IMG/VR virus record: IMGVR_UViG_3300044911_000947
Span: 1 to 23,415 of that record
Source: a virus
DNA length: 23,415 bases
Strand: one strand, 5' to 3'
The position numbers and the translations under genes are program-made. Positions 1 through 22,433 of the stretch are shown one piece after another. Numbering within the stretch: the first letter of the stretch is position 1; every line of letters begins with the position of its first letter. The notes under the pieces were generated by a model, which had not been told where the DNA came from, made no database searches, and worked only from the letters and a program-made list of their open reading frames with translations.

Positions 1-3000
1 TTGGAGCTAATGATACTATCTTAGTACTATCAATATTTAATAGTTTAAGTAATAACTTAGTAACAACTTGTGTCTTACCACTACCAGCATAACCAAGTAC
101 AACAGCTACAGGACCAGTTAATGGATTACCTTTATACCAATTAACTAACTCTCGTAATGTTACAAGTTGTTGTTTGGTTGGTATATATTCTGTGATAGTA
201 GAGAATAAGTTTACCTCACTCAATAACATATCCTTAGTATTAACTGCAGGATTATTATAATTACCAGGTATGTTCTTAACTACATTTAACATGTAGAAAA
301 GATTACGTAAGTCAGCTATCTGTTGTGTACTCTCAGTACCATCTTCAGGATTGATTAAAGAATCATCAGAAGCTTTATTTATAATAGTTATATCCTTAGT
401 GTTTATATACTGACTAATTGGATGTGATATATCCAAGAAGGTACTTCTATAAACAGAAAGTAAATATTGAGTTAAGAATGTTTCAGGATCTTTAGCTAGT
501 AATGCTTTATCTAAATGAAAAGGAGTACCATATAAATTTAAATCCTCAAACTTAGTTTTACAATATAAATACAGATCATCAATCTTAGCATTTCTAAAAT
601 CAATTAGCTGATTCCAATATTTAACTGGGTCATTAGGATCTGTCATTGAGCTATAAACAAACTCATTCATAGCTATAGCATAGCTGTGATGTAAGTAATA
701 TTTACCAGTAGCATCTTGTACTAATACACTATCAATGAATATTTTTAAAGCGTCTTTAATAGCATCAGTTAAAGGTAAATTGAATTTTACAACCGCATCT
801 TTATCAGTACTAGGTGTATACGTAATACCCATAGGTATTAATGTATTCGTAGTAGCTATGGTATAAGATTCTTCTTGAGCTAATTCCTTATCAGCAAGTC
901 TAGCTCTAATAGCTTTTCTAGCGTTAGCTAAGTCTTGTTCAAGTTGCTCAATAGCATTCTTTAACTCCACTGATATCTTTTTATCAGGATTAGTATATAA
1001 TTGTTTCTCTTCTATTAATACTTCCTTAAGCCATTTAAGTTTCTTTTCTAAAGCAGCTATTACAGAATCATCTAAGTAATCACTATCAGTATTAGCTTTA
1101 TCAACTTCACCAACCATTTCTTTTAAGAAACGATCCCATACGAATGTGATTTCTTTATCTACCTTTGAAGTGGATATACCTTTAGGTTCTCTAATTAAAT
1201 TAGCTTCTTGTAACCTATCTTGTAGCTTTAACGCATCAGTATACTCTTCACGTAAAGCTTTAAGCTTCTGATAGTAATCAGGATCTTCAATATAAGCACT
1301 ATCCATTAAATCGTTTAACTCATCAATGGTAGTTATCTTATTCTTATCCCCAAGAGAATCTTCAACCTCTGAAGCTTTATTAAATACTTCTGAAGCTTTT
1401 AATCCTATACGTTTTACTATCTCATCATTCTGCTCTTTAGTTATAGGAGCTTTAACTTGTTCAGCATATGCTAATATCTCCTGAGGTAGTACCTCAAGAT
1501 CTAACATACGTTGTACGTTACTTCTTTTATCAGTGTCTCTAAGCAATGAGGTTTCTTCGAGATCTTCTAAGAACTCGATATATTCCTTCTCACCTTTAAC
1601 ACTATTATCCATACCAACCATGTTAGAATTCTTAACATATTGGTCTCCATACTTATAAGACAAACCAGACTTCTGAGCTTCAGTACCTAATCTAGCTAGC
1701 TTATTATTCTCTCTAGTTTCTTTACTGAATTCTCCTGAAGCTATACGCTCATTCTCTTTTAAGAGTCTAGCTATAGCTCTCTCTTTAAGTATAATTGGAA
1801 TATCAAGATCATCATAGATCTCATTAAGATTTAAATTCTTAGCCTTTTCAGGATCTAATAATGAATCAAATAACTTTTTTCTTTTACTTAGTAATTTAGT
1901 TCTAGCCTCATTATCAGTAGGCTCATCTATGATAGCTCTGTAAGGATTAATCTCATCATTCTTAAGTGAGAATAAATCAGCTATCTGCTCAGTATACTCA
2001 CCAATCATTAAGCTATTCTTAATAGCTCTCTTACGATCATCTTTACTAATACCTCTAAAGTCATACTTCTCAATAAGATTGAAAATATATTGTGTATCAT
2101 CTATCTTATTAAACTCTGCCTTAGCTTTCTTAAATCTTAATACTTCTTTCTCAGCATCTGCTGGGGTAATATTACTACCTTCGATTTTAGATAATGATCT
2201 AATAGAATCTATGAAGTAATCCTCTTTATCATTATCAATATACTTAGCATAAGTGTCATACTTAAATCTTAAGTACTCACCATTAGCTTGCTCTTTAGCA
2301 GCTCTACCTAAATACGATTTAGCTTTAGCATATCCATAGTGATCGCTAATAATACTAGCAGCTTGTGGTAAAGTCATCATAGGACCAGCAGCAAGAGCAC
2401 CAGCATTTACAGCTGATATAAACTCGCTGTTAGTATACAATGAAGAGTTACCATTACCAAAGATAGCCTTCTCTACTTCAAATCTATCACTTGCTAACTG
2501 GGAAGCTTGACTAAGTAAACCTAAGAAGCTATCATCTTTATAGTTAGTAGTATCCTTTAATCCTGTTGTGTCCTTACCTAATACCTTATCTAAATATTGT
2601 CTAGTGAATAACCATTGACTACCCTCCTCGTTCATTTCCATATTGGTATTCAAGGTCAAGGCACCAATCTTTAATCCAGTACGCATCCAACGATTAGTAC
2701 CCAAAGCTATGTTACCTACCTTAGTAAAAGGTGTAACAGCAAGTATAGATTGTAATACATCACCAAACATTAATCCCATGTTCTTAGTTCGCAAACCTTC
2801 TAATTCTTCATGGGCTTTCATTGAAAGTTTATTTAACTCTCTTTGGTGTTTAGGATCTTCAAGCTCAGCCATATCCTGGATATTATTCTTGAGCATGTAA
2901 TCTTGGGTAAGTAAAGAAACAGCTTCCTCGTATGCATCATTCTCTTCAGCCTCAGTCTCTTGTACACGAGCTTTCCATTGTACAGCCAGATCACCAGCTA

Positions 3001-3751
3001 ACACAGCTAACGTAGCACCAGCAGCTACAGCATTACCTATACCAGGAGCCATAGAACCAGCAGCTTCAGCTGTAACTAATCTAGCTATAGCAGCCTTAAT
3101 AAGTTTAGGAGTAAATGCAGCAGCAACTGTAGCACCTAAAGTACCAAAGGAGCTACCAAAGTCTTTACCAAACTCATACTTAAAAGCATTGAATGCTGAA
3201 GTGTTAGCATCACGCTGGAACATATCAGAGAGTAATTTAAACTCTAAATCTATATCCTTATTTCTACGAGCTATATCTTCTTCACCCCCAGCAATTAAAC
3301 CAGTTAAACCAGAACCGTATTTAATATCCTCTTCTAGCTCCATAGTTTTCGTAGCAGTTTCCTGGTCAAACTCTTGAGCTTTTTGTTTAGCTCTACTTAA
3401 CTCATCTTGTAATGAAGCAGCTGTTACTAAATCATTATTCTCAGAAGCCTTCTGCATACGATCCTGTAAATCATAAATCTCCTCCATCTGCTTCATCTTG
3501 TTGTAGTTAAGATTACGCAGTTGAGTTTTTGATGATCCAGTATTTATACTAGCCATAGCATTTAAGAATGTATTGAGAGTATTATCCTGTGACCAGCTAT
3601 CTTGAATTAAACCTGGGTCTGTAGTAAATCCTTCAGGTGAAGGTCCTGAATAATACGGTACATTGTTAGTTGCTTGCATTGCATCAAGTGTATTATTTAC
3701 ACCTGTCTGCGTTTGTCCTGTTAATAAGTATTTTAATACTTCTGGTCTCAT
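1..3751 (-). CDS. Giant internal-virion / polyvalent-type protein with SF1-helicase P-loop (3' end outside window)
   Basis: An open frame starts at ATG 3751 and runs without a stop to the window edge, giving 1250 visible residues. The start overlaps the upstream TGA as ATGA. In order: a polar N-terminus; a likely coiled coil (about residues 70-150, repeated K/E/Q/L); a Gly/Ala-rich hydrophobic stretch (about 205-257) that could touch membrane; a long charged helical region (about 480-970); then, from about 1190, TKQQ (1192-1195, Q-motif-like), GYAGSGKT (1220-1227, Walker A with K1226 T1227) and SLAP (1247-1250), the expected start of motif Ia. This order fits superfamily 1 helicases of the Dda/RecD type. 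Position directly after two internal-protein genes and a lysozyme-like domain suggests a protein packaged in and ejected from the virion; that role is inference. Helicase motifs II-VI lie beyond the window, so activity is unproven. An AAA-type or other P-loop ATPase is the main alternative. Confidence 0.85.
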   Translation of the reverse strand, partial: MRPEVLKYLLTGQTQTGVNNTLDAMQATNNVPYYSGPSPEGFTTDPGLIQDSWSQDNTLNTFLNAMASINTGSSKTQLRNLNYNKMKQMEEIYDLQDRMQKASENNDLVTAASLQDELSRAKQKAQEFDQETATKTMELEEDIKYGSGLTGLIAGGEEDIARRNKDIDLEFKLLSDMFQRDANTSAFNAFKYEFGKDFGSSFGTLGATVAAAFTPKLIKAAIARLVTAEAAGSMAPGIGNAVAAGATLAVLAGDLAVQWKARVQETEAEENDAYEEAVSLLTQDYMLKNNIQDMAELEDPKHQRELNKLSMKAHEELEGLRTKNMGLMFGDVLQSILAVTPFTKVGNIALGTNRWMRTGLKIGALTLNTNMEMNEEGSQWLFTRQYLDKVLGKDTTGLKDTTNYKDDSFLGLLSQASQLASDRFEVEKAIFGNGNSSLYTNSEFISAVNAGALAAGPMMTLPQAASIISDHYGYAKAKSYLGRAAKEQANGEYLRFKYDTYAKYIDNDKEDYFIDSIRSLSKIEGSNITPADAEKEVLRFKKAKAEFNKIDDTQYIFNLIEKYDFRGISKDDRKRAIKNSLMIGEYTEQIADLFSLKNDEINPYRAIIDEPTDNEARTKLLSKRKKLFDSLLDPEKAKNLNLNEIYDDLDIPIILKERAIARLLKENERIASGEFSKETRENNKLARLGTEAQKSGLSYKYGDQYVKNSNMVGMDNSVKGEKEYIEFLEDLEETSLLRDTDKRSNVQRMLDLEVLPQEILAYAEQVKAPITKEQNDEIVKRIGLKASEVFNKASEVEDSLGDKNKITTIDELNDLMDSAYIEDPDYYQKLKALREEYTDALKLQDRLQEANLIREPKGISTSKVDKEITFVWDRFLKEMVGEVDKANTDSDYLDDSVIAALEKKLKWLKEVLIEEKQLYTNPDKKISVELKNAIEQLEQDLANARKAIRARLADKELAQEESYTIATTNTLIPMGITYTPSTDKDAVVKFNLPLTDAIKDALKIFIDSVLVQDATGKYYLHHSYAIAMNEFVYSSMTDPNDPVKYWNQLIDFRNAKIDDLYLYCKTKFEDLNLYGTPFHLDKALLAKDPETFLTQYLLSVYRSTFLDISHPISQYINTKDITIINKASDDSLINPEDGTESTQQIADLRNLFYMLNVVKNIPGNYNNPAVNTKDMLLSEVNLFSTITEYIPTKQQLVTLRELVNWYKGNPLTGPVAVVLGYAGSGKTQVVTKLLLKLLNIDSTKIVSLAP

Positions 3752-4320
3752 TTATTGAATGTGTTTGCGAATTGTGTTAGGTAATCTAATACAGTAGAGT
3801 TCTTATAAACTTTACCATACCGTTTTAAATAAGCTTGATTTAAAGCTTGTTGTGCTGTACTATGTGCTTCAATGTCTCCTAAGTTATTACGCTTAGCGCT
3901 TTGATAAGCTTGTAGGTATAAGTTAGTATCAGGAAATCCTAAGAAGTGTTCCATAGCCATATAGACTTCATCACTAGCTCCAGGAAACTTAGATTTTAAT
4001 GTTGGTACATTCTTACTATATGAATCGAATAAGTAATCCATATATTGTTCCTGAGCTACATTATTTTTCAAATAATCTTCCTCCTTCTTTACACCAGTTA
4101 TTTTAGCTATAGCATCAGAATGCGCTTTCCATAATACTTGGTATTTTCCACGAGCACTACTGTTAGGATTAACTGCAGCATAGTTATTATTAGTTCCTTC
4201 TGGAACTGTTAGGGCAGACTTGAACTTATCTCTTATCGTATTCCCCCCAGTGGATTGCCCTGCTGTCCCTGAGGTTGAGTGGGGTTTCCAGATATACCAT
4301 CTACAATTTCTGCAGGCCAT
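3748..4320 (-). CDS. Lysozyme/transglycosylase-like domain, probably expressed by -1 frameshift from the upstream gene
   Basis: The only in-frame ATG before the domain (4320) lies inside the 762-aa gene, and the first ~24 residues it gives (rich in Cys, Trp, Arg) look like out-of-frame translation. The convincing protein begins at about residue 27. It has the lysozyme-like pattern of a possible catalytic Glu in VPEG (E41), then NPNSSARGKYQV (51-62), and later HFLGFPD (125-131), similar to phage virion transglycosylases. The next ATG (M94) would remove the presumed catalytic region. This and the slippery site at 4242-4248 argue that the domain is made as a C-terminal extension of the 762-aa protein. 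The likely role is local opening of peptidoglycan during genome ejection (inference). The stop overlaps the next start as ATGA. A sequencing indel in the G-run, or genuine initiation at 4320, are alternatives. Confidence 0.75.
   Translation of the reverse strand: MACRNCRWYIWKPHSTSGTAGQSTGGNTIRDKFKSALTVPEGTNNNYAAVNPNSSARGKYQVLWKAHSDAIAKITGVKKEEDYLKNNVAQEQYMDYLFDSYSKNVPTLKSKFPGASDEVYMAMEHFLGFPDTNLYLQAYQSAKRNNLGDIEAHSTAQQALNQAYLKRYGKVYKNSTVLDYLTQFANTFNK
4192..4207 (-). other. Small hairpin downstream of the slippery site
   Basis: Minus-strand AGTTCC-AGAA-GGAACT forms a perfect 6-bp stem with a 4-nt loop. It starts 34 nt after the slippery heptamer, much farther than the 5-9 nt usual for a frameshift stimulator. 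A role in frameshifting is therefore doubtful, and coding constraint for VPEGT could create it by chance. Confidence 0.25.
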
Positions 4321-6521
4321 CCAGAGGCTATACCCTCACGTATTAATATATTCAATCTAGCAAGTCCTTTGTAATCATTAGACTCTTTGTATTGCTTTAA
4401 CAAAGGTAACAATACATTAGATACTGCTTTAGGAGTACGCTTGTTATTCAATACATTCTGCATAGTTAAACTAATTGCTGTAGCAGCACCTTTAGTTTTA
4501 GCTATGTTGTCAGCTACCCTAGTCTCATTTAACTGCATAAGTACTTCTGGGTATTGACTATTCCAAGCATCCTGATTAGCATCATATGTAGAACCAACAC
4601 CAGCAGCTTGCCTATTAAAGCTTTGAGCTTTTATAGGAGTATTAATCTGTTCAGGTAAATAGTATTGTAAACTAAATGAACTACCACCCCTAGTTCCAGG
4701 ATTAACTTTCATTATCTTACTACCTATATCTTCCCAGAATTCTCCAAAGGAACCGTAAGTACCACTATCTAATGGTGACATATCAAACATATCTGGAGCT
4801 ACTCTTTCCATGTAGTTTACAAAGTTTTCTTCTGCAGATAATACTTCTTTACCATCATCTGTAACTGTTGGTCCGAATGTAATATAACCCTTAATGAATC
4901 TCTTATCATCTACACTAACTACATTCTTTTCTCCTGTAGCTACTCTAAATGGAGCTTCACCAGAATTCATTATCTTATAACCCATCTTGCTTCTAACTTC
5001 CTGAATCATTTCTTCTTCAGTCATCTTAGCAGATTTATCTAATTGAGCTTTTAATAACTTATTATTTAAAGCTACAACATCACTAGGCTTAGTAATAACT
5101 TCACCCATCTCTAATGCAGCATTTTGTATAGCTAACCATTCAGGCGATGATGTATCAAGATTAGCTACACTAGCAGCTAACTCATCTGTAGCAGCTTTAT
5201 ATTCCTTAGTCATGTTTACATAGAATTCTGTAAAGTTTTTATCAGTCATACCAGAAGGTAAGTCTAATATAGAACTAAAGAAGTTACGCTTCTCTACACT
5301 ATAGTTATTATCATCGAATAAGTGGAATGCTCTATTTTGTATTCTAGCTTGTTTAAGTTTCTCACTTAAAGTATACATAGTTTTTATAGGGGCACTTAAA
5401 CCAAGCTTAGCCATATTCTCTTCTTGTACAGTATTGTAATTAGCTTCTTTAACTTCTTGCTCATTAGTTAATCCCCTATTACCAAATTGTGTTATACCTT
5501 GATCTGTAGCATCAACAATTACTGTACCATTAGCTTGTAATTGTAACCCATTGAATGCAGCAAAGTCTTTAGGAGTAACTTGGTCAGAAGCAACATAAGC
5601 ATTAACAGGAGCTTGCATTTGTGGTTTATCAGTTTTACCATCACTAGAACTAGCTAATCCTTTAGCTATGTTAACCTTACTATTTATTTGCTCAGCACCT
5701 GTAAGCATAATCATAGCTTTAGCTTGTTCGTAGGGAGTTAACTCATACATAGCTTTACCATCAAAGTAAGTCTTACCACCTAATTGCGATAGTACATCAT
5801 CAGGTACAGTACCTAATAGTTCCCTATCACCACTGATAAAATCATTAAAGTTTTCAGACTGCATATAGTTTACAGCACCAGTATTAGCTTTCTCTTCTAA
5901 GTCAGCTATAGTCTTACCGAACTCTGTAGTGAATGCTCCAGTTGTTGGGTCTATCATAGCTTGTGGATTAATAGCGCTACCAACCCATTTGTTTAATAAC
6001 TTACCTTCTATATGTGTACCCCAGTTTTGAGTAAACTTATAATTCATATTAGCTTCCCAAGGATCTTGACTACGTGAGTCTACATCTTGTGGATTAAATT
6101 GTAACCAAGGTAACAACTTATTATCAGCCCTGAAGTCAGGGTCCATCATCTTAGATGCTAAAGCTGTATTGTTAGCTTTGTATAAATCAGCTAAGCTAGT
6201 CATACGATCTAACAGAGGTTTACTCTCTGATACAAAGTTATTTATAGCCATAGAGTATTTAGTAGGATTCATATCAGGATCAGTAATTAACTGATTCTGT
6301 AACTCCTTATACTTAGATCTAATAGCTGGTAAATTACCTAACTCATCTTGACTTTGAGGTACAGTTCTAACATTCTTAAATATGTCAGATACTTCCTGAT
6401 CTGATTCTGCCCTAGCTTTATCCCAACGTTGTTGTGTCATATCAGCTGCTTTTAATATCAGCTCATATGGTAATACACCTGGGTTCCATTCTGGTGCTTT
6501 ATCGTATCTATTTATTCCCAT
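4233..6521 (-). CDS. Internal virion (cargo-type) protein, 762 aa
   Basis: The gene starts at ATG 6521, nine bases after the upstream stop, and ends with TAA at 4233. The protein is mostly helical and polar with no TM segment. The N-terminus has the pattern PGVLPYELILKAAD then QQRWDKA (about residues 14-37), which I associate with large internal/cargo proteins of crAss-like and related Bacteroidota phages; this is recollection, not a search result. The C-terminus is a flexible GNPTQPQGQQGNPLGG linker ending at the slippery heptamer. It lies between another internal-type protein and the giant helicase-containing protein, so a role inside the capsid or tail and in ejection is likely. The in-frame product of 762 aa and a minor frameshifted ~924-aa product may both be made. 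Confidence 0.8.
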   Translation of the reverse strand: MGINRYDKAPEWNPGVLPYELILKAADMTQQRWDKARAESDQEVSDIFKNVRTVPQSQDELGNLPAIRSKYKELQNQLITDPDMNPTKYSMAINNFVSESKPLLDRMTSLADLYKANNTALASKMMDPDFRADNKLLPWLQFNPQDVDSRSQDPWEANMNYKFTQNWGTHIEGKLLNKWVGSAINPQAMIDPTTGAFTTEFGKTIADLEEKANTGAVNYMQSENFNDFISGDRELLGTVPDDVLSQLGGKTYFDGKAMYELTPYEQAKAMIMLTGAEQINSKVNIAKGLASSSDGKTDKPQMQAPVNAYVASDQVTPKDFAAFNGLQLQANGTVIVDATDQGITQFGNRGLTNEQEVKEANYNTVQEENMAKLGLSAPIKTMYTLSEKLKQARIQNRAFHLFDDNNYSVEKRNFFSSILDLPSGMTDKNFTEFYVNMTKEYKAATDELAASVANLDTSSPEWLAIQNAALEMGEVITKPSDVVALNNKLLKAQLDKSAKMTEEEMIQEVRSKMGYKIMNSGEAPFRVATGEKNVVSVDDKRFIKGYITFGPTVTDDGKEVLSAEENFVNYMERVAPDMFDMSPLDSGTYGSFGEFWEDIGSKIMKVNPGTRGGSSFSLQYYLPEQINTPIKAQSFNRQAAGVGSTYDANQDAWNSQYPEVLMQLNETRVADNIAKTKGAATAISLTMQNVLNNKRTPKAVSNVLLPLLKQYKESNDYKGLARLNILIREGIASGWPAEIVDGISGNPTQPQGQQGNPLGGIR
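4242..4248 (-). other. Candidate -1 ribosomal frameshift slippery heptamer GGGGGGA
   Basis: On the minus strand the end of the 762-aa frame reads CTG GGG GGA ATA CGA TAA, so the heptamer sits as G GGG GGA in zero frame, the X XXY YYZ form. Both tRNAs can re-pair on GGG GGG after slipping back one base, and reading continues as AAT ACG ATA into the lysozyme-like frame. The stop is three codons past the heptamer. The predicted product is 760 + 164 = about 924 residues. The zero-frame C-terminus is a Gln/Gly/Pro/Asn-rich stretch typical of an interdomain linker, which supports a natural fusion point. Confidence 0.65.
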
Positions 6522-6530
6522 ATCTTCTTC

Positions 6531-8993
6531 TTATTTTGAATAACCATTCTTCTTCAACCATGCCTGAAACTGTGGGTTATCACCCATCATTGGTAAGGCT
6601 TCAAAGAAAGCATTATCATATCTCTTTTGATTACCATACTTACTAAAGTCATTAATACCTTCCATAAGCATGTTACGTTTAGCAGACTTATTCATATCAT
6701 TCATATCTCTAATCTTTAATCCTGTTTGAGAATTAAATATTCTAGACTGTTGATTAAACTGATCTGTGTTCATTATAGATGTAGCATTAGCTCTATCTGT
6801 TTCTTGTCTAGCTCCCCACTTCTGTTTCATTGAGTTAACTGTCATGTTAACCATCGAAGCTGGTGAAGAGTTGATTCTACGAAGTGAAGCTAACCCAGCA
6901 TTAGTAGCATCGTTAATCATCATCTGACTAGCCTTATCATCTATTAAGCTAGGCTTTAAGTTAGTAGGTACAGTATAGTCAGAGGCATTTATATTCTCTA
7001 CCCTATCAAACAACCCTCTACCAACCTTAGCTGCAGGACTAAGTAACCCTAAGATCTCTGGAGCTTTAGAAGCTAAAGAACTCCACTTAAATCCATTACC
7101 ACCACCTGTACCCTTAGCCATATCAGCTTGCATTTGATCTGGTGATAATATACTAGTCCAATTTTTTAATGAGGTACTAGCCCAACCATCTTCAGCCATA
7201 GGTATACCTGATTTTCTCTCCTTAGCTTTCTGCTTAGATATCAAAGACATAATCATCATTTGACGATCTCTCCTATTAGAGTTTTTGAAATCAACTGATT
7301 TCTTTTTAGGTATAATAGCATCACCTTCATTTACAGTAACTGTACTTGATGGGTCCATACCGTTAGTTGGGTGTGGATTAAATGGTGCGTAATTCTGTAA
7401 TACATTACCTAAGAGATCAACTCTAAGTTCTCCCTTCTTCATGTCTTGTATGGTTCCAATTTGTTTCCTAGAACCTTCTATATTAATTTGTGTTTTCATT
7501 GCTTGTCCACCATGTTTAAATGTGTTTGGGTTAACATTTCCCTCAAGAGCAGATCTACCAGCGCTATATGCAGCACCAGCTAATGGTCCACCTACAGCAC
7601 TAAGAACTAGCGGGGCTACTATCTCAGATACTTTACTACTTAATTGTGCTGCCTTATTAAATTGATTAGCACCAAGTTTAGTTGAGTATGTATCAGAATT
7701 TATTACATTGTCTAAACCAACCACAGCTAAAGCAGTATCTGCCAGACCTAAACCAGTGTCAGCTAAATAATTACCAAAACCTGTTTTATAATTTTTTGAA
7801 CTATTTCTTTCTCTTGATGCTCTTGCACCCATACTAGCTAAAGAGTTAGCTCTAGCATCTCTAGTAGTTGAGTAGTCAACTAAACCACCAAAGTCATATT
7901 TTTTAGGATAAATAGACTGAGTGTTAAGTCTATTCAAGAACTGGCGATCTAATCCCTCATTTTCTATAAACTGATAATTTGTAGGTCCTGCACTATTTCT
8001 TAAATAAGAAGATCTACGTGCATATATTTCTTTTTGTAATCTAGCTTTTATATTATCCAAATTATTAACATCTAAATCTTCCATAGTGCCATAATCAGAT
8101 GTGCCTTGTTCAGTATTTTGAATACCTATAAGATTTCCTTTCTTATCATATATGCTTTCTACAGGATTAGCAAGCATGCTTTTTTCTTTAACAATTCCTC
8201 CACCACCATACTTATTAATTGTAGCCCTATTCTTTACACCATCATTAAATCTATAACCCATCTTACGTAATTGTTCTGGGCTATAGTTCTGACCTGTTTG
8301 TGGAGCATCTACCCATTCACCACGACTATCTAAGTATAATGGTAGTAACATACCTTTAGTACTCTTAGGAGTAGTCCCAATAGGTTCAGCACTAACATTA
8401 GTATTAGGCATACCACGCATAGGCATTTTTTTCATAGTTGGTGTAGTTGGGTGTTTAGGTGTAGATGGTTCTGGATCGTAAAATACTCCACCTGGTTGAT
8501 GTCTAAAATCATTACCACTACCTAACACAGCATCACCCATTATATTAGTATTACCTGTTTCAGGTTTTCTGTATACTACTGGTTGTACTGGTTTTGCATT
8601 GGAATAATCTTGTATTTTAGCGACACTCTCATCAAAAACTATATTATCTTTTAAATAATTTATATAACCGCTGGGGTTTATATTAGGATCTACAAGTTGA
8701 TTTAAATCCCCAGTACGAAATTGTTCTTTAGCTTTTTTTCTTTCAGCTTCTTTTTTTATACAAGCATAACAAATACTACCATCAGGATTTCTAGGATAGT
8801 CTTCTTTATTTTTAATAAAATCATTAGATGAATATTTTTTATCTAATAAATTTTTTATTTTTACAAAATCGTTATACACATTTAAACTATCCTGATAAGC
8901 TTTAAGTCTAGGATCATTAGGGTCACTAGTATATATAGGTTCTACTGGTTTTGAAGTGTCACCACTGACACGCGCTCTATTTGTTCTTGGCAT
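6531..8993 (-). CDS. Internal virion (cargo-type) protein with repeated aromatic-GG motifs, 820 aa
   Basis: The gene starts one base after the stop of the muzzle-like gene. The protein is modular: a charged N-terminal part with a CYAC pair (C75, C78); long disordered Pro/Lys/Thr stretches (about 140-215); two Ala/Gly/Leu-rich hydrophobic segments (about 403-430 and 456-483) that could be membrane-active; a compact region (about 500-565) with INIEG and VTVNEGDAIIPKKK resembling a small beta domain common in Bacteroidota phage internal proteins; and a polar helical C-terminus. Short motifs KYGGGG (261-266), KYDFGG (365-370) and KHGG (493-496) recur before segments. No enzymatic motif is visible. 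Context places it among proteins stored in the virion and released on infection; exact function unknown. Confidence 0.8.
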   Translation of the reverse strand: MPRTNRARVSGDTSKPVEPIYTSDPNDPRLKAYQDSLNVYNDFVKIKNLLDKKYSSNDFIKNKEDYPRNPDGSICYACIKKEAERKKAKEQFRTGDLNQLVDPNINPSGYINYLKDNIVFDESVAKIQDYSNAKPVQPVVYRKPETGNTNIMGDAVLGSGNDFRHQPGGVFYDPEPSTPKHPTTPTMKKMPMRGMPNTNVSAEPIGTTPKSTKGMLLPLYLDSRGEWVDAPQTGQNYSPEQLRKMGYRFNDGVKNRATINKYGGGGIVKEKSMLANPVESIYDKKGNLIGIQNTEQGTSDYGTMEDLDVNNLDNIKARLQKEIYARRSSYLRNSAGPTNYQFIENEGLDRQFLNRLNTQSIYPKKYDFGGLVDYSTTRDARANSLASMGARASRERNSSKNYKTGFGNYLADTGLGLADTALAVVGLDNVINSDTYSTKLGANQFNKAAQLSSKVSEIVAPLVLSAVGGPLAGAAYSAGRSALEGNVNPNTFKHGGQAMKTQINIEGSRKQIGTIQDMKKGELRVDLLGNVLQNYAPFNPHPTNGMDPSSTVTVNEGDAIIPKKKSVDFKNSNRRDRQMMIMSLISKQKAKERKSGIPMAEDGWASTSLKNWTSILSPDQMQADMAKGTGGGNGFKWSSLASKAPEILGLLSPAAKVGRGLFDRVENINASDYTVPTNLKPSLIDDKASQMMINDATNAGLASLRRINSSPASMVNMTVNSMKQKWGARQETDRANATSIMNTDQFNQQSRIFNSQTGLKIRDMNDMNKSAKRNMLMEGINDFSKYGNQKRYDNAFFEALPMMGDNPQFQAWLKKNGYSK

Positions 8994-8994
8994 A

Positions 8995-11900
8995 TTATCT
9001 GGTATTTAACATAACTAAAGAGTTTGAGTTAGTAACCACAAACCTATAGTTATTACTATTATCGTATACAGCATCAACTAAGAACCAACGATCTTTCATA
9101 CGTTGAGTTAAAGCTAACCTGGTTTGAGAGATATTAGATGTATCAAAGATATCAACAATATCCTTATTGTTATAAAGTACCCTGTTACCAGGTACTAGTA
9201 CATTCCATAATGTTTTTCTACGCTTAGCAGTTTCAGAACATAGTATGTAGTCTGTATTCTGATAAGTATTACTAACCCTAATTGATTTAAAGAAATCATA
9301 AGGTACTGGTACTGACATAGGATTATATATATCATATATACCTATATCCTGATAAGACTCAGTAACAAATTCAAAGTTAGTTAGTATCTTTTCTTTATCT
9401 GATTCCTGATTAACTATAAAGCTAACCTTACTATCTACAACTGGCTTGTTATAGAACTTACCATATTGACCATAGTCTTGTAAGTAAATATAACCACCAT
9501 CACTATTAGTATTACCAGGGACAGTAAAGATATTTAATCTATCGTTAATGTATAATCTTGGGTAATAAGAATAGAAGGATGTAAAGCCATCTGTGAGTGC
9601 ACTGTAAGCTATAGTAAAGTAATCACCTGTACCAACCTCTTCATTCTTATCAAGCATTGATATTAAGAACTCATTATATCTGTGATCGTATGTACAAACA
9701 AAACCATTATCAGTTATAGGGTTATCAGTTGATTGTATTAAACCATCTAGCTTCCTGTATAAGAAAGCATTAAGTCCTTTGATATCACTTAATGGTTCAG
9801 TACCCTGAGCACTAAACTTAAATATTTTCCTACCCAAGACATCAATGAATACTATTGAATCATCACTTACAGCAAACCCTGATTGATTCTTAGAGCCTAC
9901 AATAGTTGATATATAATCATATCTTTCAAGTACACCACTAGTTCCTAGAACAAGTTCAGAAGTACTGGTAGCGTCTTGTATAAGTTGTTGTGCATTAACC
10001 TGGAATAAACCAAATCCTCTATCTTGGAAATAGAATAACTTATCCTTAAATACAATAAGATTGTTAATAGGCCCATACTTGCTATCCACGTCTTTGTAAG
10101 CTTCAGGTAAGAATGTAGTCCATGAATCAATATCTTCGCTGTTAGTTTTAGTCTCCGACTTATAGGTCCGTGTATCATACTCGTTAATGTTTTGATAGTT
10201 TAATGGTTTAGCAACGTGAACCATATAGTAGGGATTCCAACTAAACAAGTCACAGGTTGTTGCTTCAAATGATTCTACAGTATCAACTGCACCACTACTA
10301 CCTTGACCAAAAGGATCAGAGTAATTAGGTATAGCTGCTGGTAAAATATCTTTACCACGTAGTTCAGTATTAATAGTACTTTCAAGTGGTACACATAAAG
10401 TTATACCACCAGCTTCTCCAATCAATATACTATTATCACCACCTCCAGCACCACTAGGGTCCATAACTGATATTGCACTATCACCAACCCTACGTTTCCA
10501 ATCTGGAAAATCCATGATAGTATCGTAGACTTGTGTGTAAGTATCACCACCAGCTATAAGTAAGTTAGGCATATTAACGCCTGTTACTTTAAAGTAGTTA
10601 GATACTGGTATGTATGTGTTAGTACTACGCTGAGCATATGAACTACCATTGTATTGAGCATTCAATGTTCTATTGTAGTTTACAATATATTTATATAAAG
10701 AACTACCACCTTGAGAAGTCCAACTATCTAAGTCAGCATATCCTCTACCACCGAATGTTGTTGTTAAGAAATCAACTGAGCCATTAAGGTTACCTGAAGT
10801 AGGTTTATTACCACCAAATATAATAGCAGCTCTATTAGAGCCTGTTGAATATCTTGTTACAAATCCTGTATTACTATTGCTTGGTGAGAAATTACCTACT
10901 CTAGCATTAGTATTATAAACTAATAATGTTGATGGGTTATAAGCACCAAATGTTGAACTATGTCCTGCTAGAAATGATTCGTGGACTGGGTATATAGGAC
11001 CATCAGCTGCACTATCCTTAATACAATAAGGAGAATTAGCTGTATCTATATGTGAGTAGTATTTACTTATAATCCAAGCTACATCTTCACATGGTATGTT
11101 ATTACCATCTAAAGCATTACCACAATCTTGCCCATAAACAAAGCTATTTTGATTGGTACCCAAGATACCAACGAAGTCTATTGAATCACCAGTTTGAAAT
11201 CCTGGGAATCCTCTAAAGTCAAAGTCTGGAGATTTAATTGATCCTACATTATGCCATAATAAAGAATCGGACCTAAGGTTAACTGGGTAATAATTACTAC
11301 CACCTAAACCTGTAGCAGAGTCATGTGATAAGTAAAATGCTGTACCACTTATTACTGATGAGTAATCTTTCTGAGCAAAGTTAAATACACCTTGACCAAC
11401 AATATGTTTATCATTATCAGTCCTAGGTACTACTACTATCTGAAACCCAGTAGCTTCAGTTGGTATATTACTTAATGAAAACTTCAAATACATTTGATTT
11501 GTATAAGCTTTCACATTAGTAGAATCATAAGTAGCTAATGGGTATGCTAAGAATCTTTGATGTTTAGCTGTACCATTAGGCATGTACACATGTGGTACAC
11601 GTATATCAGCTATCCATTTAGGGAAGCTAGGATTACCAAGATCATCAAAGAATACAACAGCAAATCTATACATCTCATCACGCTGATAGCCAGCCATTAA
11701 TGGTGCATAGAATGGTGAAACAAAACAATCATAAAAATTACCATTAGTATGATCTCTATCACCTAATGATATAATAGTATTAGTCTTTGTAATTATATTC
11801 CTATAAGGAGCTCCATTATATGATCCTGGTGAAAAGCTATTACCTATTTGTTTCTCATCTGCTAATATAGGAAAGCTAGAAAACTCATAACTAACATTTG

Positions 11901-14061
11901 GTCCTTGACCTCCTAGGTTAGTTAGGGTACTAGCTGATACAGAACCTGGTTTGTATAATAAGTTATTAGTACTTAATGGTGATTGATTACCATAGTCTTG
12001 TATAGCATCAAATGTCTCAGGTACATCATAAGGTGTTACAGCTGAACCATTTATAGCAGTGATCTGCCAAGTATTACCAGACTTAGTTAAAGTGTATGGT
12101 GTACCTTGTGCATCATATAAGGTAGTGGTAGTAGAGTTTAAAGGAAACCTATAAGCTCTTGAATCATAGTCTACATCAAAAGTATTAGTCCTAACATTAG
12201 ATAGGAATAATATATTGTTCTTAGTAGCCATAGCTTTAGCTCTAACAATATTAGTTGAGAAAGCTGTAAGCTCATCTATACTAATTGGGTAATCAGAATC
12301 TTCTTCCCCAGTATGTAGGAAAGTCATTGTAGATCCTGTAATAACATTATCTGAAATTACTTTAATCTCAGGTGCTGTATTCTTAGTACCATAGTAAATG
12401 AAGGCTATCTCAATTCTATCAAAGTTTGTATCTATATTAGATACTTCTAATTGAATAGATTTATCAACAGTTACCCCAGCATCTACAGCATAATAGTCTA
12501 TCCAATTTGTGGTAGACTCATCCTGTACTGTTAATGGTACTAATATTGATGGCATAGAGAACCTAGTCTCTGCACCATTGTTACGCTTTAACCTATATGC
12601 ATACTGATACATCCCTGACTTCAAATTACCGCCTTTAACGATACCTGTTAAGTTTAACACATCAAAGTCAATTGCTGGTGTTAAAAGTAATTGTGAGGGA
12701 GCTAAACTAGCTACATTGGGATCTGCGACATTAATATATCTAGGAGGATTAAAATTATCCGTCCAGTATATCTTTTGAATGTTTTCATTCTCATACCTGG
12801 CTTCAACTCTACCAAGATTTAATATTGGATGTTGTGTACTAAAATTTAACTCACTATTGTATATTAGAGTTAATGTTGAATTTATATTTACATTGGGGTC
12901 AGCAGTTCTATCATAAGTAAACTTCCATATCTGACCATTACTAATTGGATCTACACCACCTGGATCAGGATCTGTACATGAGGTTGTAAATAAATAAATA
13001 TCATCTCTTAATGTAACCCAACCAATTATCTGCGCACTAGCTACACCAGAAATGTAGTTATTAGTAACATTAAAGATTTGACTATACATCCCAGGACCGT
13101 ACAAGTCTACACCAACAATCCAAACTACAGCAGCTGTAGTAGGTGGAGGAGTAATTGAAGTAGGTGTGAAATCTAATCTAATAGTTATATCATTATTAGT
13201 AGGGGTGATAGGTGTTGTTATTGTTCTAACTGAGGCACCAGCTACACCACTATAATCTTGACCACCACTAAGAGCATAAGACATTGGAGTAACCCCACCT
13301 AAATCTAATGATATATAAGCTGTAGTGTTTTGTATAGCCCCAGTCTTGTACTTTAAATTTATAGTGTAATTACCAGTTGGTAATGTCTTAGGTATTGTTT
13401 GTGTAACCTCATGCCATGAAGCAGGACCATTACTTATTTCAGTATTAGCTACCCACTGCATTAGACCCCCTATGTTAACAAATGTAGGGTGATTACTATA
13501 AGCAATACCAGCACCACCACTATCAGTAGCAACCCATGAATTTAAAGTATTAGCACCAGCAACTCTAGGTAATGTTAAGTACTGATTGTAGTTAACTAAA
13601 CCAGTACCACCACTAACAAATGTAAAGCTAGTTATAGATACATTAGTTACAGCAGATGAGGATATATGAATACTATCAGTATAGCTAGTAGCTACAGTAG
13701 TACCAAAGCTTGAGTTTATATGAGAGGTTAATCCAGTTAATAAGTCAGCTAGGGAAGTATAAGTAAATTGATAAGCAGGTAAATTTGTACCATCAATATT
13801 TACTACGATAGAATATATACTACCAAGTGATAAGTGTGATAAGTACTCAGTGTTAATTTCTATCTTAGAAACAGAATTAATATCTGGAATAACTGAATCA
13901 AACTTATTACCACGAATGTTAGTACGTGATAATGTTGTAGCACCATTAGTAGTAACTACACGGAAATTCTCAGAATTATATACTAAGTCTGGTTTTAACA
14001 GAGCCTTAGAAATATCCTGATTCATATTCCCACCTAAATTATTTTTTAATGGTATTAACAT
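8995..14061 (-). CDS. Large muzzle/stabilization-type tail protein, 1688 aa
   Basis: The largest complete gene here. It starts at ATG 14061, sharing a base with the upstream stop (TAATG). The N-terminus carries NNLGGNMNQDISKALL (about 7-22), followed later by IYWTDNFNPPRYINV (431-445) and KDKLFYFQDRGFGLFQVN (about 1330-1355). These hallmarks fit the very large beta-rich tail proteins of crAss-like and Cellulophaga-type phages called stabilization or muzzle proteins, which close the tail tube. The rest is beta-strand rich, possibly propeller- or sandwich-like, with no TM segment. Residues about 170-325 look like an inserted jelly-roll, galactose-binding-type domain (NYTINLKYKT, AYISLDLGG, DITIRLDFT). 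Position after the ring proteins and before the internal proteins fits this role. The fold is inferred from sequence pattern only. Confidence 0.8.
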   Translation of the reverse strand: MLIPLKNNLGGNMNQDISKALLKPDLVYNSENFRVVTTNGATTLSRTNIRGNKFDSVIPDINSVSKIEINTEYLSHLSLGSIYSIVVNIDGTNLPAYQFTYTSLADLLTGLTSHINSSFGTTVATSYTDSIHISSSAVTNVSITSFTFVSGGTGLVNYNQYLTLPRVAGANTLNSWVATDSGGAGIAYSNHPTFVNIGGLMQWVANTEISNGPASWHEVTQTIPKTLPTGNYTINLKYKTGAIQNTTAYISLDLGGVTPMSYALSGGQDYSGVAGASVRTITTPITPTNNDITIRLDFTPTSITPPPTTAAVVWIVGVDLYGPGMYSQIFNVTNNYISGVASAQIIGWVTLRDDIYLFTTSCTDPDPGGVDPISNGQIWKFTYDRTADPNVNINSTLTLIYNSELNFSTQHPILNLGRVEARYENENIQKIYWTDNFNPPRYINVADPNVASLAPSQLLLTPAIDFDVLNLTGIVKGGNLKSGMYQYAYRLKRNNGAETRFSMPSILVPLTVQDESTTNWIDYYAVDAGVTVDKSIQLEVSNIDTNFDRIEIAFIYYGTKNTAPEIKVISDNVITGSTMTFLHTGEEDSDYPISIDELTAFSTNIVRAKAMATKNNILFLSNVRTNTFDVDYDSRAYRFPLNSTTTTLYDAQGTPYTLTKSGNTWQITAINGSAVTPYDVPETFDAIQDYGNQSPLSTNNLLYKPGSVSASTLTNLGGQGPNVSYEFSSFPILADEKQIGNSFSPGSYNGAPYRNIITKTNTIISLGDRDHTNGNFYDCFVSPFYAPLMAGYQRDEMYRFAVVFFDDLGNPSFPKWIADIRVPHVYMPNGTAKHQRFLAYPLATYDSTNVKAYTNQMYLKFSLSNIPTEATGFQIVVVPRTDNDKHIVGQGVFNFAQKDYSSVISGTAFYLSHDSATGLGGSNYYPVNLRSDSLLWHNVGSIKSPDFDFRGFPGFQTGDSIDFVGILGTNQNSFVYGQDCGNALDGNNIPCEDVAWIISKYYSHIDTANSPYCIKDSAADGPIYPVHESFLAGHSSTFGAYNPSTLLVYNTNARVGNFSPSNSNTGFVTRYSTGSNRAAIIFGGNKPTSGNLNGSVDFLTTTFGGRGYADLDSWTSQGGSSLYKYIVNYNRTLNAQYNGSSYAQRSTNTYIPVSNYFKVTGVNMPNLLIAGGDTYTQVYDTIMDFPDWKRRVGDSAISVMDPSGAGGGDNSILIGEAGGITLCVPLESTINTELRGKDILPAAIPNYSDPFGQGSSGAVDTVESFEATTCDLFSWNPYYMVHVAKPLNYQNINEYDTRTYKSETKTNSEDIDSWTTFLPEAYKDVDSKYGPINNLIVFKDKLFYFQDRGFGLFQVNAQQLIQDATSTSELVLGTSGVLERYDYISTIVGSKNQSGFAVSDDSIVFIDVLGRKIFKFSAQGTEPLSDIKGLNAFLYRKLDGLIQSTDNPITDNGFVCTYDHRYNEFLISMLDKNEEVGTGDYFTIAYSALTDGFTSFYSYYPRLYINDRLNIFTVPGNTNSDGGYIYLQDYGQYGKFYNKPVVDSKVSFIVNQESDKEKILTNFEFVTESYQDIGIYDIYNPMSVPVPYDFFKSIRVSNTYQNTDYILCSETAKRRKTLWNVLVPGNRVLYNNKDIVDIFDTSNISQTRLALTQRMKDRWFLVDAVYDNSNNYRFVVTNSNSLVMLNTR

Positions 14062-16140: not shown

Positions 16141-17217
16141 TTATAGTTCCATTGGAACTACTATAGGTAATTTTCCATTTAATACTACTCCGCATGATAC
16201 AATTGATTTTTTACTAAAAGCTTTAGCGTAATCAAAACTGTATTGCGCATCATCAATACCACATCCTACTTGCATTGCGAATATCCGATCTATCTCAGAG
16301 ACGTTCCAGGTGATAGACGCTGTAGTATGTAAGTGCCCACTAACCACAGATAATCTGCGATTTAAAGCTCTATTAAAAGCGGCCCTATCACCTGAAGTCC
16401 CAGTACCATGAGTATAGATAACACCTTGAATCTGGTGTTCGAGATCGAATTTCCAATTAGGTACTTCAAGTACCTCTGCTAATCCTTTGATCCAACGCTT
16501 AGACATACCTGAGGTAAATGCCTTACGTTGAATTATCTGATCGTGGTTTCCTAAGCAAACATGTGCTTCAGGGAATGTATAGTACCAAGACTTTAATTTA
16601 CTGATAGCTAAAGCTAGTTCATCACCAGCTGAATGACCATCAGGATTAGTCTCATGATATGATGAGTAGTTATTATCAACTACATCACCAATATGTACTA
16701 CTGTACCACAATTAAATCTTTCTTGAACTTCTCTGCAGAACTTTAAATACCCTTTCCTTTCAAAAGGTATGTGGGTATCTCCAATGACCAATACGTTATT
16801 CTTATCGCCCGTTAGAAATGGTTCAATCTTCTCTTCCTGCAGATCAACTTTAATAGCATCATTTTGCTCATCAAATACACCCATCTGAAGTAGTTGATTG
16901 AGGAGTTGTAAGTTCAACTCTCTATCCTCTTGAGCATTACCAGTTCTAAACTTAACTACTGGTATTGGTGTATTTGAATCTAATCTTACTTTTACAACTT
17001 TTCTGTTGCTGCTAATAAAGTTATTATAATTTGAACTACCTCTATCTAAGAGTTCTCCTCTTTTAAAGTAGTCCTTTACTTCTTTAATAATATCTCGAAC
17101 ATCTTCGTATGATAAGCTAAATCTATCAGCTAGTTTAGCGTAAGAAGTCTTTAAATGTCCTGGGTGGCTGATTAGCCAATCCCTCAATACTTGTTGTTTT
17201 GTTTCTCTATTTCTCAT
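16141..17217 (-). CDS. Calcineurin-like metallophosphoesterase with N-terminal helix-turn-helix region, 358 aa
   Basis: All signature motifs of the binuclear metallophosphoesterase fold are present in order: GDTH (146-149), GDVVD (177-181), GNHD (223-226), THG (269-271) and GHLH (294-297), so the enzyme is predicted active on a phosphodiester or phosphomonoester. Before it, about residues 22-51 (TSYAKLADRFSLSYEDVRDIIKEV) look like a winged or simple HTH, hinting at DNA binding. Known relatives range from nucleases to protein phosphatases, so the substrate is open. It is the first gene after the promoter at 17238-17269, with a ~20-base A-rich leader and no Shine-Dalgarno sequence, and it heads the structural operon. 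A role in DNA handling, regulation or host interference is possible; nothing here decides. Confidence 0.85.
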   Translation of the reverse strand: MRNRETKQQVLRDWLISHPGHLKTSYAKLADRFSLSYEDVRDIIKEVKDYFKRGELLDRGSSNYNNFISSNRKVVKVRLDSNTPIPVVKFRTGNAQEDRELNLQLLNQLLQMGVFDEQNDAIKVDLQEEKIEPFLTGDKNNVLVIGDTHIPFERKGYLKFCREVQERFNCGTVVHIGDVVDNNYSSYHETNPDGHSAGDELALAISKLKSWYYTFPEAHVCLGNHDQIIQRKAFTSGMSKRWIKGLAEVLEVPNWKFDLEHQIQGVIYTHGTGTSGDRAAFNRALNRRLSVVSGHLHTTASITWNVSEIDRIFAMQVGCGIDDAQYSFDYAKAFSKKSIVSCGVVLNGKLPIVVPMEL

Positions 17218-17782: not shown

Positions 17783-18041
17783 AATCTCCAAAAAATGTAG
17801 CTCCTGCACCAAATCTACCTTTAATTATATCTACTAGGTTCTCTGCAGTTAAGAACCCTAAACCTAATAATATTATAGTTGCTAGGATATACAAGAAGAT
17901 CTCTTGTATGGCTACCCCAGTATAGAGGTGGACGATATACCCAACATTAAATTGTACAAAGGCGGTAAAGACAGTAACTTTCCTAGCGGAAGGTTTTCCG
18001 CGATATTCAAAAGTTTTCTTAAACCACCTTATTAATTTCAT
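17694..18041 (-). CDS. Two-TM membrane protein of the lysis cassette, 115 aa
   Basis: The protein has a basic N-terminal segment (MKLIRWFKKTFEYRGKPSARK), two hydrophobic helices (about 23-42 and 46-64), TAENLVDIIKGRFG just after, and a polar Asp/Asn-rich tail. Small proteins with this KPSARK plus two-TM plus TAEN layout recur in crAss-like phages, to my recollection, without proven function. It is TAATG-coupled to the lysozyme and overlaps the spanin-like gene. That position suggests a second holin, an antiholin or a lysis regulator, or a membrane partner of the spanin. The tail (about 72-115) overlaps the spanin start by 89 bases in another frame, which may constrain its sequence. Confidence 0.65.
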   Translation of the reverse strand: MKLIRWFKKTFEYRGKPSARKVTVFTAFVQFNVGYIVHLYTGVAIQEIFLYILATIILLGLGFLTAENLVDIIKGRFGAGATFFGDYEQDIDINKRNRINNPDLMQDDPNKMGEG

Positions 18042-18496
18042 TACCTAAAATATAATTCTGTTTCTAATTTTCTTCTTCTTAATAATACTCTACTGACCTT
18101 ACCATCAGCATATTTCCACCTACCAAACTGCGCAGCTATAGCTGGATCATTTGGATTCTTATTAACCATTCTAGCTAGCGTAGAGTTCTTATAGTTAGTT
18201 AAACCAACATTAAAAGCAAATGATACTAAAGCATCAAATTGATTCTGAGTTAATGTATCTACAGTTAAAGAGTCTACACCACTTTCATAATGATCTAATA
18301 GTTTTAAAAGCATTACCTCAGCCCACTCCTCTGTTATAGGAGTATCTTGTAAAGTAACTCTTTTACCATTAGGGTACCTAGTAAAGCCATAACCAATAGT
18401 AGGCACACCTGCCTCACATAAGTATGGTTTAGATCTAAAGCCTTCTAAATATTTAATTAGATTTAGGCCCTGTTGACTTACTTTTGTTACGTGCAT
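18041..18496 (-). CDS. Phage lysozyme (endolysin), GH24 / T4-lysozyme-like, 151 aa
   Basis: The catalytic pattern Glu-8x-Cys/Asp-5x-Thr is intact: E18 in YLEGFR, C27 in PYLCEAG and T33 in VPTIGYGFT. Cys at the usual Asp position is known in several GH24 endolysins. FDALVSFAFNVG (about 98-109) and the C-terminal RR(R)KLE segment are further family hallmarks, and the length is normal for a single-domain enzyme. There is no signal peptide or SAR segment, so release to the murein depends on a holin. The start at 18496 lies 44 bases inside the holin-like gene, and the first ATG gives the whole domain. It cleaves the MurNAc-GlcNAc bond of peptidoglycan at the end of infection. Confidence 0.93.
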   Translation of the reverse strand: MHVTKVSQQGLNLIKYLEGFRSKPYLCEAGVPTIGYGFTRYPNGKRVTLQDTPITEEWAEVMLLKLLDHYESGVDSLTVDTLTQNQFDALVSFAFNVGLTNYKNSTLARMVNKNPNDPAIAAQFGRWKYADGKVSRVLLRRRKLETELYFR

Positions 18497-20724: not shown

Positions 20725-22095
20725 TTAAATATTTCTACCAGCAAGTCTGATAGTAGGAGTTTGTCCGTTAGTATTCCAACTCATTACACCTTGATTAACA
20801 GGGGGAGTAGTAATCCACTTTGTAGCATCTTCAGGATTAAATGTAGCTGGTGGGTTAACCCAGAACCAACGACCTGCACCATTGATGTTATTAAATTTAG
20901 TATTAGTAGTTAAGAATGGTACATTGTGTACAATCATCTTAGCATAAGCTGCTGAATCAAAGCTGATTAAGGTACAATCATATTGTGAGAACACAGTATC
21001 AATATTAGCATAACCATCTTTTAATCTTACGTGTACAGCTGCAACTGAAGGTACTTGTTCAATATGACATCCTTTAACAGTAAATTCTTTTACAACTGTA
21101 GAGCTATTATCATCAAAGTATATTTCGTACTGAGGACCAGCCTGAACACCTTCAAAGATACAATGGTCAATAACTAACCCAGATACAGCTGTAGCCTTAA
21201 TAGCACCAAACTGACCTGCAGAATGTCTGAACTTACAATCCCTAATTATACTATGATTAGACTGGGAAGCACTATTAGAACCACCAGTAAATCTAGCATA
21301 ATCTAATTCAATACTGATATTGTTTTCCCAGAAGTAACATTGGTCAATTATAGTACCCATTGTCCAACCACCTTTGAAAGCACTTCTAAAGTTAGAGAAT
21401 CTACATCCTTCAATACGAGCACCATAGTTAGCTTCCAGATCTATACAGTCAGCACCACGATTAGATGTAGATATAAACTCTACATTACGTATTCTAAACT
21501 GCATATCAATACCAGAGTTAGCTGCTGTTAAGCTAGCATACTTACGGCTAAATATAGTTGTAGCAGATGTGATTGAGAATCCATGACCCTCAAGTTCTAA
21601 CATCTTAGTATAGTTAGGATTTATAGTAACTGGTTGTGTTAAAGTAATATTATTAGCTAAGTGTATAGATCTAATATTAGCGTCAGCGAAAGCTGCTCTA
21701 AATTCTGCTTCATTAGTTACCCAACGAGTATTACCAACATTACCTGTACCACCAGTACCTGTACCAGGAATACCCTGTGGACCCTGAGGTCCTTGTGCTC
21801 CAGTATCTCCTTTGTCACCCTTTTCACCAGTATCACCTTTAAGTCCCTGAATTCCAGGATCACCTGGATCACCTTTAGGACCTTGTAAGCCCATTGGACC
21901 AGTACTACCTGTAGGACCAGGCACACCAAATATACCACTTATTTCTTCCCAAGAGGTACCGTTATGGAAATAGGATTTCATTGTAGGTACTACTATAATT
22001 ACATCACGATTTGAAACAAAACCAGATGGTTTCTGTAGTGGGAGTTCTGTGGATTCAAATGTGATCCTAGCTAAATTTAAGTCTTTGTTTAACAT
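20725..22095 (-). CDS. Collagen-like plus beta-helix fibre/spike protein, 456 aa
   Basis: A short head (1-52) ending in [12 protein letters not shown] leads into a collagen-type Gly-X-Y run (57-121) and then a right-handed beta-helix domain (about 125-400: [61 protein letters not shown]). The C-terminal module [20 protein letters not shown] resembles WYFDRVMSIDPADSSNWF in the next gene. The protein is probably a trimer, with the collagen segment as a rod and the helix as a receptor-binding or polysaccharide-active tip. It starts TAATG-coupled to the 112-aa gene and ends three bases before the paralogous spike. No signal peptide is present, as expected for a virion protein. Confidence 0.82.
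21733..21927 (-). repeat. Collagen-like Gly-X-Y coding repeat in the spike gene
   Basis: About 21 consecutive G-X-Y triplets encode the rod segment, with many K-G-D and Q-G-P units. DNA-level repetition of GGAs and CCAs is evident but imperfect, so the tract is more varied than the one at 23120-23284. Confidence 0.85.
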
Positions 22096-22433
22096 TATAT
22101 ATCTTTTAAAAGTTGAGAACTGTCAAGGCAAGAAGAGCACTGGCATATACCACGTACACCTTCAATTACCCATTGTAGATCTTCAGAAGATAAACATTCA
22201 TCTTCCTCAGTTTGTGTGTAGATAACATCACCATTTACTTCATATTCATAGTCTAATGGTCTGTATCTTTTTAAAGCATCCATGTAATATTCTAACATAG
22301 TTGCTTGTAGTTTTAAAGTAGTAGCACATGGATTACCAGATCTCTCAGCTATAATAATATTATAGGTTAATACTGGTAAGCAACATTGTGCTTTTAATCT
22401 AATTTCTTGTATATCCTCGTATGTATAAGTCAT
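22095..22433 (-). CDS. Small Cys-rich protein between fibre genes, 112 aa, function unknown
   Basis: TAATG-coupled to both the collagen-like fibre upstream and the spike downstream. The first half is helical ([33 protein letters not shown]) and the second half acidic ([21 protein letters not shown]). Five of its seven Cys lie in two clusters: CC (17-18) and CQCSSC plus a neighbouring C in the last ~17 residues. There is no signal peptide or TM. It may be a fibre assembly chaperone or a connector between fibre proteins, judged only from position. The Cys clusters could bind zinc or form disulfides. I do not recognise a family. Confidence 0.6.

Follow-up and report, generated by a model that had tools for sequence, protein, structure and literature searches.

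How a predicted peptidoglycan-cleaving domain comes to be translated when its reading frame lacks a suitable start, and to what protein it is then attached, is the question raised by one gene junction in a 23,415-base stretch of viral DNA (IMG/VR record IMGVR_UViG_3300044911_000947), hereafter the window. The window is recognised as a fragment of a crAss-like phage because its 1688-amino-acid (aa) muzzle protein matches PF25731 (E = 4e-158). On its minus strand, the gene of a 762-aa protein, the putative cargo protein 2 of the virion, ends beside an open -1 frame that encodes the domain. The best explanation, which we hold with considerable confidence, is that programmed -1 frameshifting adds the hydrolase to a minority of the cargo-protein copies. 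Most ribosomes would terminate and release the 762-aa cargo protein, while a minority would slip one base back with GGG and GGA in the P and A sites and translate 164 more codons, yielding a 924-aa product that carries a peptidoglycan-cleaving domain on a flexible linker. A frameshift had been proposed earlier in a sequence-only reading of the window, and this interpretation is now strongly supported by comparative data.

The slip site and the frames around it

The 762-aa open reading frame ends in AAT CCA CTG GGG GGA ATA CGA TAA, with the slippery heptamer G_GGG_GGA (4242..4248) in the zero frame and two codons between it and the stop (TAA, 4235-4233). Ahead of the slip site, the zero frame encodes a Gly/Pro/Gln-rich linker, GNPTQPQGQQGNPLGG (4242..4289). 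Slipping back by one base reads AAT ACG ATA AGA GAT AAG TTC AAG and meets no stop until 3748; the resulting extension of 164 codons (3748..4242, minus strand) has coding codon usage and bears a transglycosylase-like domain, and the predicted fusion comprises 760 + 164 = 924 aa. The sole upstream ATG in the -1 frame, at 4320, lies 88 nucleotides (nt) inside the 762-aa gene, and the next one in frame stands 194 nt beyond the zero-frame stop, past the presumed catalytic Glu. The sequence-only reading had singled out each of these features, namely the zero-frame heptamer near the TAA, the product of about 924 aa, the lone upstream ATG with its successor beyond the Glu, and the Gln/Pro/Gly linker, and all of them were found here as described. 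The length of the G-run, on which that reading had made its proposal depend, also holds up: six G are present in three of three assemblies, since two further IMG/VR contigs (L001-L004), assembled from other metagenomes, carry the identical G6, with 2 and 5 mismatches in 11.5 kilobases.

Within the window this G6 is the single run of at least six G or C, and GGG_GGA is found once among the genes counted. The alternative frames of the window genes have stops at 12.5% of codons and open runs of 84 codons at most, so that a -1 frame open for 164 codons is not accounted for by chance. Codon usage, scored with each phage's own genes as the reference, marks the same boundary. Before the heptamer, including the stretch from ATG 4320, frame 0 scores +0.43 bits/codon and frame -1 scores -0.25; right after the zero-frame stop, frame -1 scores best, at +0.44 bits/codon.

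The junction and its predicted enzymes in related phages

A search of IMG/VR with an alignment of muzzle proteins gave 80 loci. The junction between cargo protein 2 and the RNA-polymerase-associated gene is reached by contigs L010, L022 and L024, and a contig of a sister group, L036, was extended after the pattern was known. The sequence-only reading had looked to homologues for the heptamer, and they have it at the same junction. In L010 an 817-aa cargo protein 2 ends in GTG GGA AAG TAA (G_GGA_AAG), followed by a -1 frame of 153 codons that would give a fusion of 970 aa. The other three share A_AAA_AAG: a 769-aa protein ending in AGA AAA AAG TAG in L022 (-1 extension of 171 codons, fusion of 940 aa), a 765-aa protein ending in CAA AAA AAG TAG in L024 (171 codons, 936 aa) and an 833-aa protein ending in GGA AAA AAG TAA in L036 (149 codons, 982 aa). 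In each of the four the heptamer stands directly before the zero-frame stop, the -1 coding region is without its own start at its natural beginning, and an RNA-polymerase-associated gene follows the extension. The A-run differs in length between L022 and L024 (six and seven), with the frame relation the same. In each of the five sequences, counting the window, the junction marks a change of the best-scoring frame from 0 to -1, and in the four relatives the frame -1 coding signal covers the stretch before any ATG.

What has changed between lineages is the enzyme. Judged by profile and sequence matches, the four lineages have wall hydrolases of four different families as their extensions. That of L036 matches PF18013, the phage tail lysozyme (E = 3e-18); that of L010 matches endolysin, tape-measure and injection-transglycosylase profiles (best E = 8e-21) and is similar to an annotated internal virion protein of an Escherichia coli phage. 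The extensions of L022 and L024 match the endolysin profile phrog_90, their best match being the unnamed phrog_14527 (E about 5e-18), and the L024 extension is 48% identical to a Lentibacter phage protein annotated as an endolysin. Over 51 aa, 47% of residues are identical between the window extension and the C-terminal domain of a protein from a Leptolyngbya phage, a domain that itself gives weak matches to transglycosylase models; at the candidate core motif, a catalytic Glu followed by Asn-Pro...Gly-x-Tyr-Gln, VPEGTNNNYAAVNPNSSARGKYQ in the window aligns with AVESGGNYRAVNPNSSAVGKYQ of that protein.

To gauge how often such an arrangement turns up, we screened the genes of these loci, 667 distinct ones in all. 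Of these, 49 (7.3%) have X_XXY_YYZ in frame among their last six codons, and 10 are followed by a -1 frame that stays open for 100 codons or more and has no ATG nearby. Both features coincide in the four focal genes (window, L010, L022 and L024) and in one other, L008 105-1391, which we rejected as a further case: its -1 frame overlaps the next gene, which has its own ATG in another frame. The genes with long -1 frames in L009, L023, L032 and L066 have no heptamer and were not counted; the L009 gene and one of the L023 pair resemble muzzle genes that have been interrupted. Among the heptamer genes listed, no more than four others carry AAAAAAG, GGGAAAG or GGGGGGA at their ends. As L022 is closely related to L024, the count covers three lineages, or four with L036; the comparison was designed after the first cases had been seen, and L036 alone was found afterwards.

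Wall hydrolases also occur elsewhere in these genomes. The gene after the muzzle gene starts with an in-frame PF00959 lysozyme domain in L010 (14820-17882), L008 (14790-19529) and L020 (5815-11046) and with an in-frame SLT domain in L026 (15463-18288); some relatives would, on these matches, carry two virion wall hydrolases. The window has a separate PF00959 phage lysozyme gene (18041-18496, minus strand; E 1e-36), whose product is probably the lysis endolysin.

Competing explanations and points against frameshifting

The -1 frame might be translated separately, as a free hydrolase from a start within that frame coupled to termination on the cargo gene. Such a start could be ATG 4320, a non-AUG codon after the G-run, which would then be Shine-Dalgarno-like, or one of the relatives' ATGs 74-119 nt past the stop. 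ATG 4320 is present and its frame is open, the ATG 74 nt past the stop in L022 and L024 sits just ahead of the conserved domain, in the window an AUA in the -1 frame lies six bases past the heptamer, and G-rich motifs direct low-level initiation at nearby AUA codons in E. coli reporters (PMC4066793). However, the -1 frame from ATG 4320 to the heptamer has the codon usage of non-coding sequence (-0.25 against +0.43 for frame 0), and the 71-116 nt ahead of the relatives' ATGs are coding in frame -1. An ATG start would moreover cut the matched domain in L036 and L010, since the match begins before the first ATG in both (PF18013 at extension residue 21 and the ATG near residue 40 in L036; the profile match at residue 29 and the ATG near residue 42 in L010). 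Genes of this clade usually abut, with commonest gaps of -1 and +1 nt, and a G-run acting as a Shine-Dalgarno sequence for a non-AUG start, which may be conceivable for the window taken by itself, is a misfit with the A-rich sites of the relatives. Internal initiation fits L022 and L024 reasonably well, and these only; it leaves the canonical, right-frame heptamer in every lineage unexplained, and we regard it as improbable.

Changes to the message or to the assembled sequence would account for the junction in other ways. Transcriptional slippage, in which RNA polymerase adds or omits bases in the run and some messenger RNA carries both parts in one frame, would suit the six- or seven-base G or A runs of three of the four lineages. 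Runs of this length are short for such slippage, the L010 site (GTGGGAAAG) has a longest run of three, and the phase always fits an X_XXY_YYZ ribosomal site, which makes this explanation very unlikely. Least likely of all is that the two parts are truly one frame split by an assembly or sequencing error, or that the hydrolase is dead in a decaying pseudogene. Homopolymers are error-prone and all the sequences are metagenome assemblies, but the same G6 appears in three assemblies, the -1 relation recurs in three other lineages with different sequences and a stop at most two codons from the heptamer, the A-runs of six and seven in L022 and L024 preserve the frame relation, and the extensions retain coding character. 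Stop-codon recoding was discarded, as readthrough of TAA or TAG cannot reach a domain in the -1 frame. Tandem slippage of two transfer RNAs on X_XXY_YYZ would account at once for the phase, for the stop close by, for the absence of fitting starts and for the recurrence, and programmed frameshifting is the reading that we carry forward.

Several observations nonetheless weigh against it. In L022 and L024 the ATG 74 nt past the stop could start an intact domain, and because a start there leaves the domain whole, the case for frameshifting in these two rests on the coding signal and the heptamer. The sequence-only reading had doubted an independent hydrolase start; this stands for the natural beginning of the -1 region, where there is none, and does not extend to the later ATG of L022 and L024. 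The assignment of the window domain as a hydrolase is indirect and the weakest of the four lineages: it has no significant match in Pfam, PHROG or NCBIfam, only weak ones among PDB sequences (E 0.006-0.012), and a single-sequence AlphaFold model with a mean predicted local distance difference test score of 64 was uninformative, Foldseek returning nothing below E = 3. Its earlier description as lysozyme-like thus finds backing in the Leptolyngbya phage protein, with its weak transglycosylase matches, and none in a curated family.

The remaining counter-arguments concern the efficiency of the slip. Frameshifting can be stimulated by a structure 5-8 nt downstream of the heptamer or by a Shine-Dalgarno-like element upstream, although in bacteria such stimulators are not always present. 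Predicted stem-loops start 2 nt after the heptamer in L036 (-16.8 kcal/mol, z score -1.2), 4 nt after it in L010 (-14.7 kcal/mol, z -2.6) and 6 nt after it in L022 and L024 (about -12 kcal/mol, z about -2.4), energies that improve only moderately on those of shuffled sequences (z -1.2 to -2.6). Folding the 52 nt downstream of the window heptamer gave no stem-loop close to it; a 6-base-pair hairpin with a tetraloop lies 34 nt downstream (4192..4207, minus strand; -8.7 kcal/mol, z about -1.5 to -1.8), probably too distant for a classical stimulator, and an AGGG 9 nt upstream (4258..4261, minus strand) is a possible, weak Shine-Dalgarno-like stimulator. In E. coli, A_AAA_AAG and G_GGA_AAG rank in the top three heptamers, whereas the all-G class is not known to be efficient, G_GGG_GGU having the lowest reported value (PMC4066793). 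The window site may therefore be weak, or suited to its own host, for which efficiencies measured in E. coli may not hold.

Cargo position, distribution and known systems

The identity of the carrier protein comes from gene order. In the window the muzzle gene (8995..14061), an 820-aa gene assigned by position as cargo protein 1 (6531..8993), the 762-aa gene (4233..6521) and a large gene that runs off the window (2..3751), all on the minus strand, follow the order gp44-gp45-gp46-gp47 of crAss001. In that phage cargo proteins 1 and 2 correspond to gp45 and gp46; mass spectrometry has detected both in virions, and both are expected to leave the particle before the DNA does. The product gp47 is associated with RNA polymerase (PMC10172136). 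A tblastn search of a collection of described phages, gp46 included, gave no match to the 762-aa protein at E 1e-3, and we designate it cargo protein 2 by position only, from synteny and weak similarity within the clade. The label of internal virion protein given earlier agrees with this synteny. Other routes to relatives added little: searches with the window's cargo and hydrolase proteins found near-identical contigs only, a plasmid search gave no relatives of the window proteins, the six aligned cargo-2 proteins were too diverse to serve as a query, an alignment of RNA-polymerase-associated N-termini brought up no contigs beyond the known set, and GTDB genomes scanned with the muzzle alignment contained no relative.

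A few further genes deserve mention. The cargo-1 proteins of the window (6531-8993) and L022 (8835-10781), otherwise divergent, share a nearly identical block of about 100 aa, KEKSMLANPVES.YDKKGNLIGIQ.TEQGTSDYGTMEDLDVNNLDNI..., which suggests a recent exchange between the two phages. Also on the minus strand of the window are two genes with collagen-like Gly-X-Y repeats (20725-23413), probably encoding tail-fibre or adhesin proteins, and, in the structural cluster, one for a 358-aa protein (16141-17217) in which the calcineurin-like phosphoesterase motifs GDTHIPFE, GDVVDN and GNHDQ were recognised by eye.

The muzzle tree places the window, L010 and the pair L022 and L024 in a single clade with strong support; this clade also contains L020 and L026, two members with neither a hydrolase insert nor a heptamer site, and L036 (labelled 'cut' when the tree was built and found positive later) belongs to a neighbouring group. 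The simplest reading is that the insert was gained once in an ancestor and lost in L020 and L026, and that the enzyme module was exchanged, though repeated gains may be the alternative. That the junction is retained while the enzyme family changes points to selection that keeps the enzyme-bearing share of the cargo small and fixed, and the sharing of one junction by four lineages with different enzymes suggests that the frameshift sets the amount of enzyme per virion. We consider it rather probable that the clade keeps the cargo-2 frameshift as a dosing device for ejection-linked wall hydrolases, with enzyme families swapped, the junction retained and few enzyme-tipped copies in each virion. 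Because the packaged part is common to both forms, virions would contain mainly plain cargo protein and a few enzyme-bearing copies, and the latter would presumably open the wall locally as the cargo and then the DNA are ejected, a role suggested by the position in the cargo operon and by known virion hydrolases. We infer each step of this scheme, from the occurrence and efficiency of the shift to virion incorporation, enzymatic activity and the part played in ejection. If it is true, frameshifting in the Crassvirales, a widespread and little understood phage order, sets how many copies of an injected virion protein bear an enzyme, and ordinary annotation is likely to miss such hydrolases or to call broken genes.

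A search of the open-access literature, with most subscription journals outside its scope, found frameshifting described neither for cargo genes of Crassvirales nor as a means of adding hydrolases to ejection proteins. Like the window gene, crAss001 gp46 lies between cargo protein 1 and the RNA-polymerase-associated gene; in contrast, no hydrolase frame precedes the next gene there or in seven other described crassviruses (phi14:2, cr10_1, cr118_1, cr113_1, cr85_1, cr272_1 and cr1_1), where cargo protein 2 is directly followed by it. The best-known frameshifts of tailed phages are those of tail-assembly chaperones, such as lambda gpG/gpGT and its relatives, where ribosomes likewise slip by -1 close to the 3' end of a late gene and produce a minor form extended at its C-terminus; lambda reportedly uses G_GGA_AAG, the heptamer of L010. 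There, however, a chaperone gains an extension that binds the tail protein, and the chaperone is not retained in the mature virion (PMC5009743), whereas here a protein placed by position among the virion cargo would gain a wall hydrolase. The capsid protein frameshift of T7 gene 10A/10B is similar in that a virion protein has a minor frameshift-extended form, but that protein is the major capsid protein and its extension is not a wall hydrolase. Virion wall hydrolases are, conversely, familiar from ejection and tape-measure proteins such as T7 gp16 and tape measures with lysozyme domains, and the L010 and L036 extensions match domains of tape-measure or internal virion proteins. In those systems the domain is in the same frame and every copy has the enzyme, while in the phages described here only the frameshifted copies would carry it.
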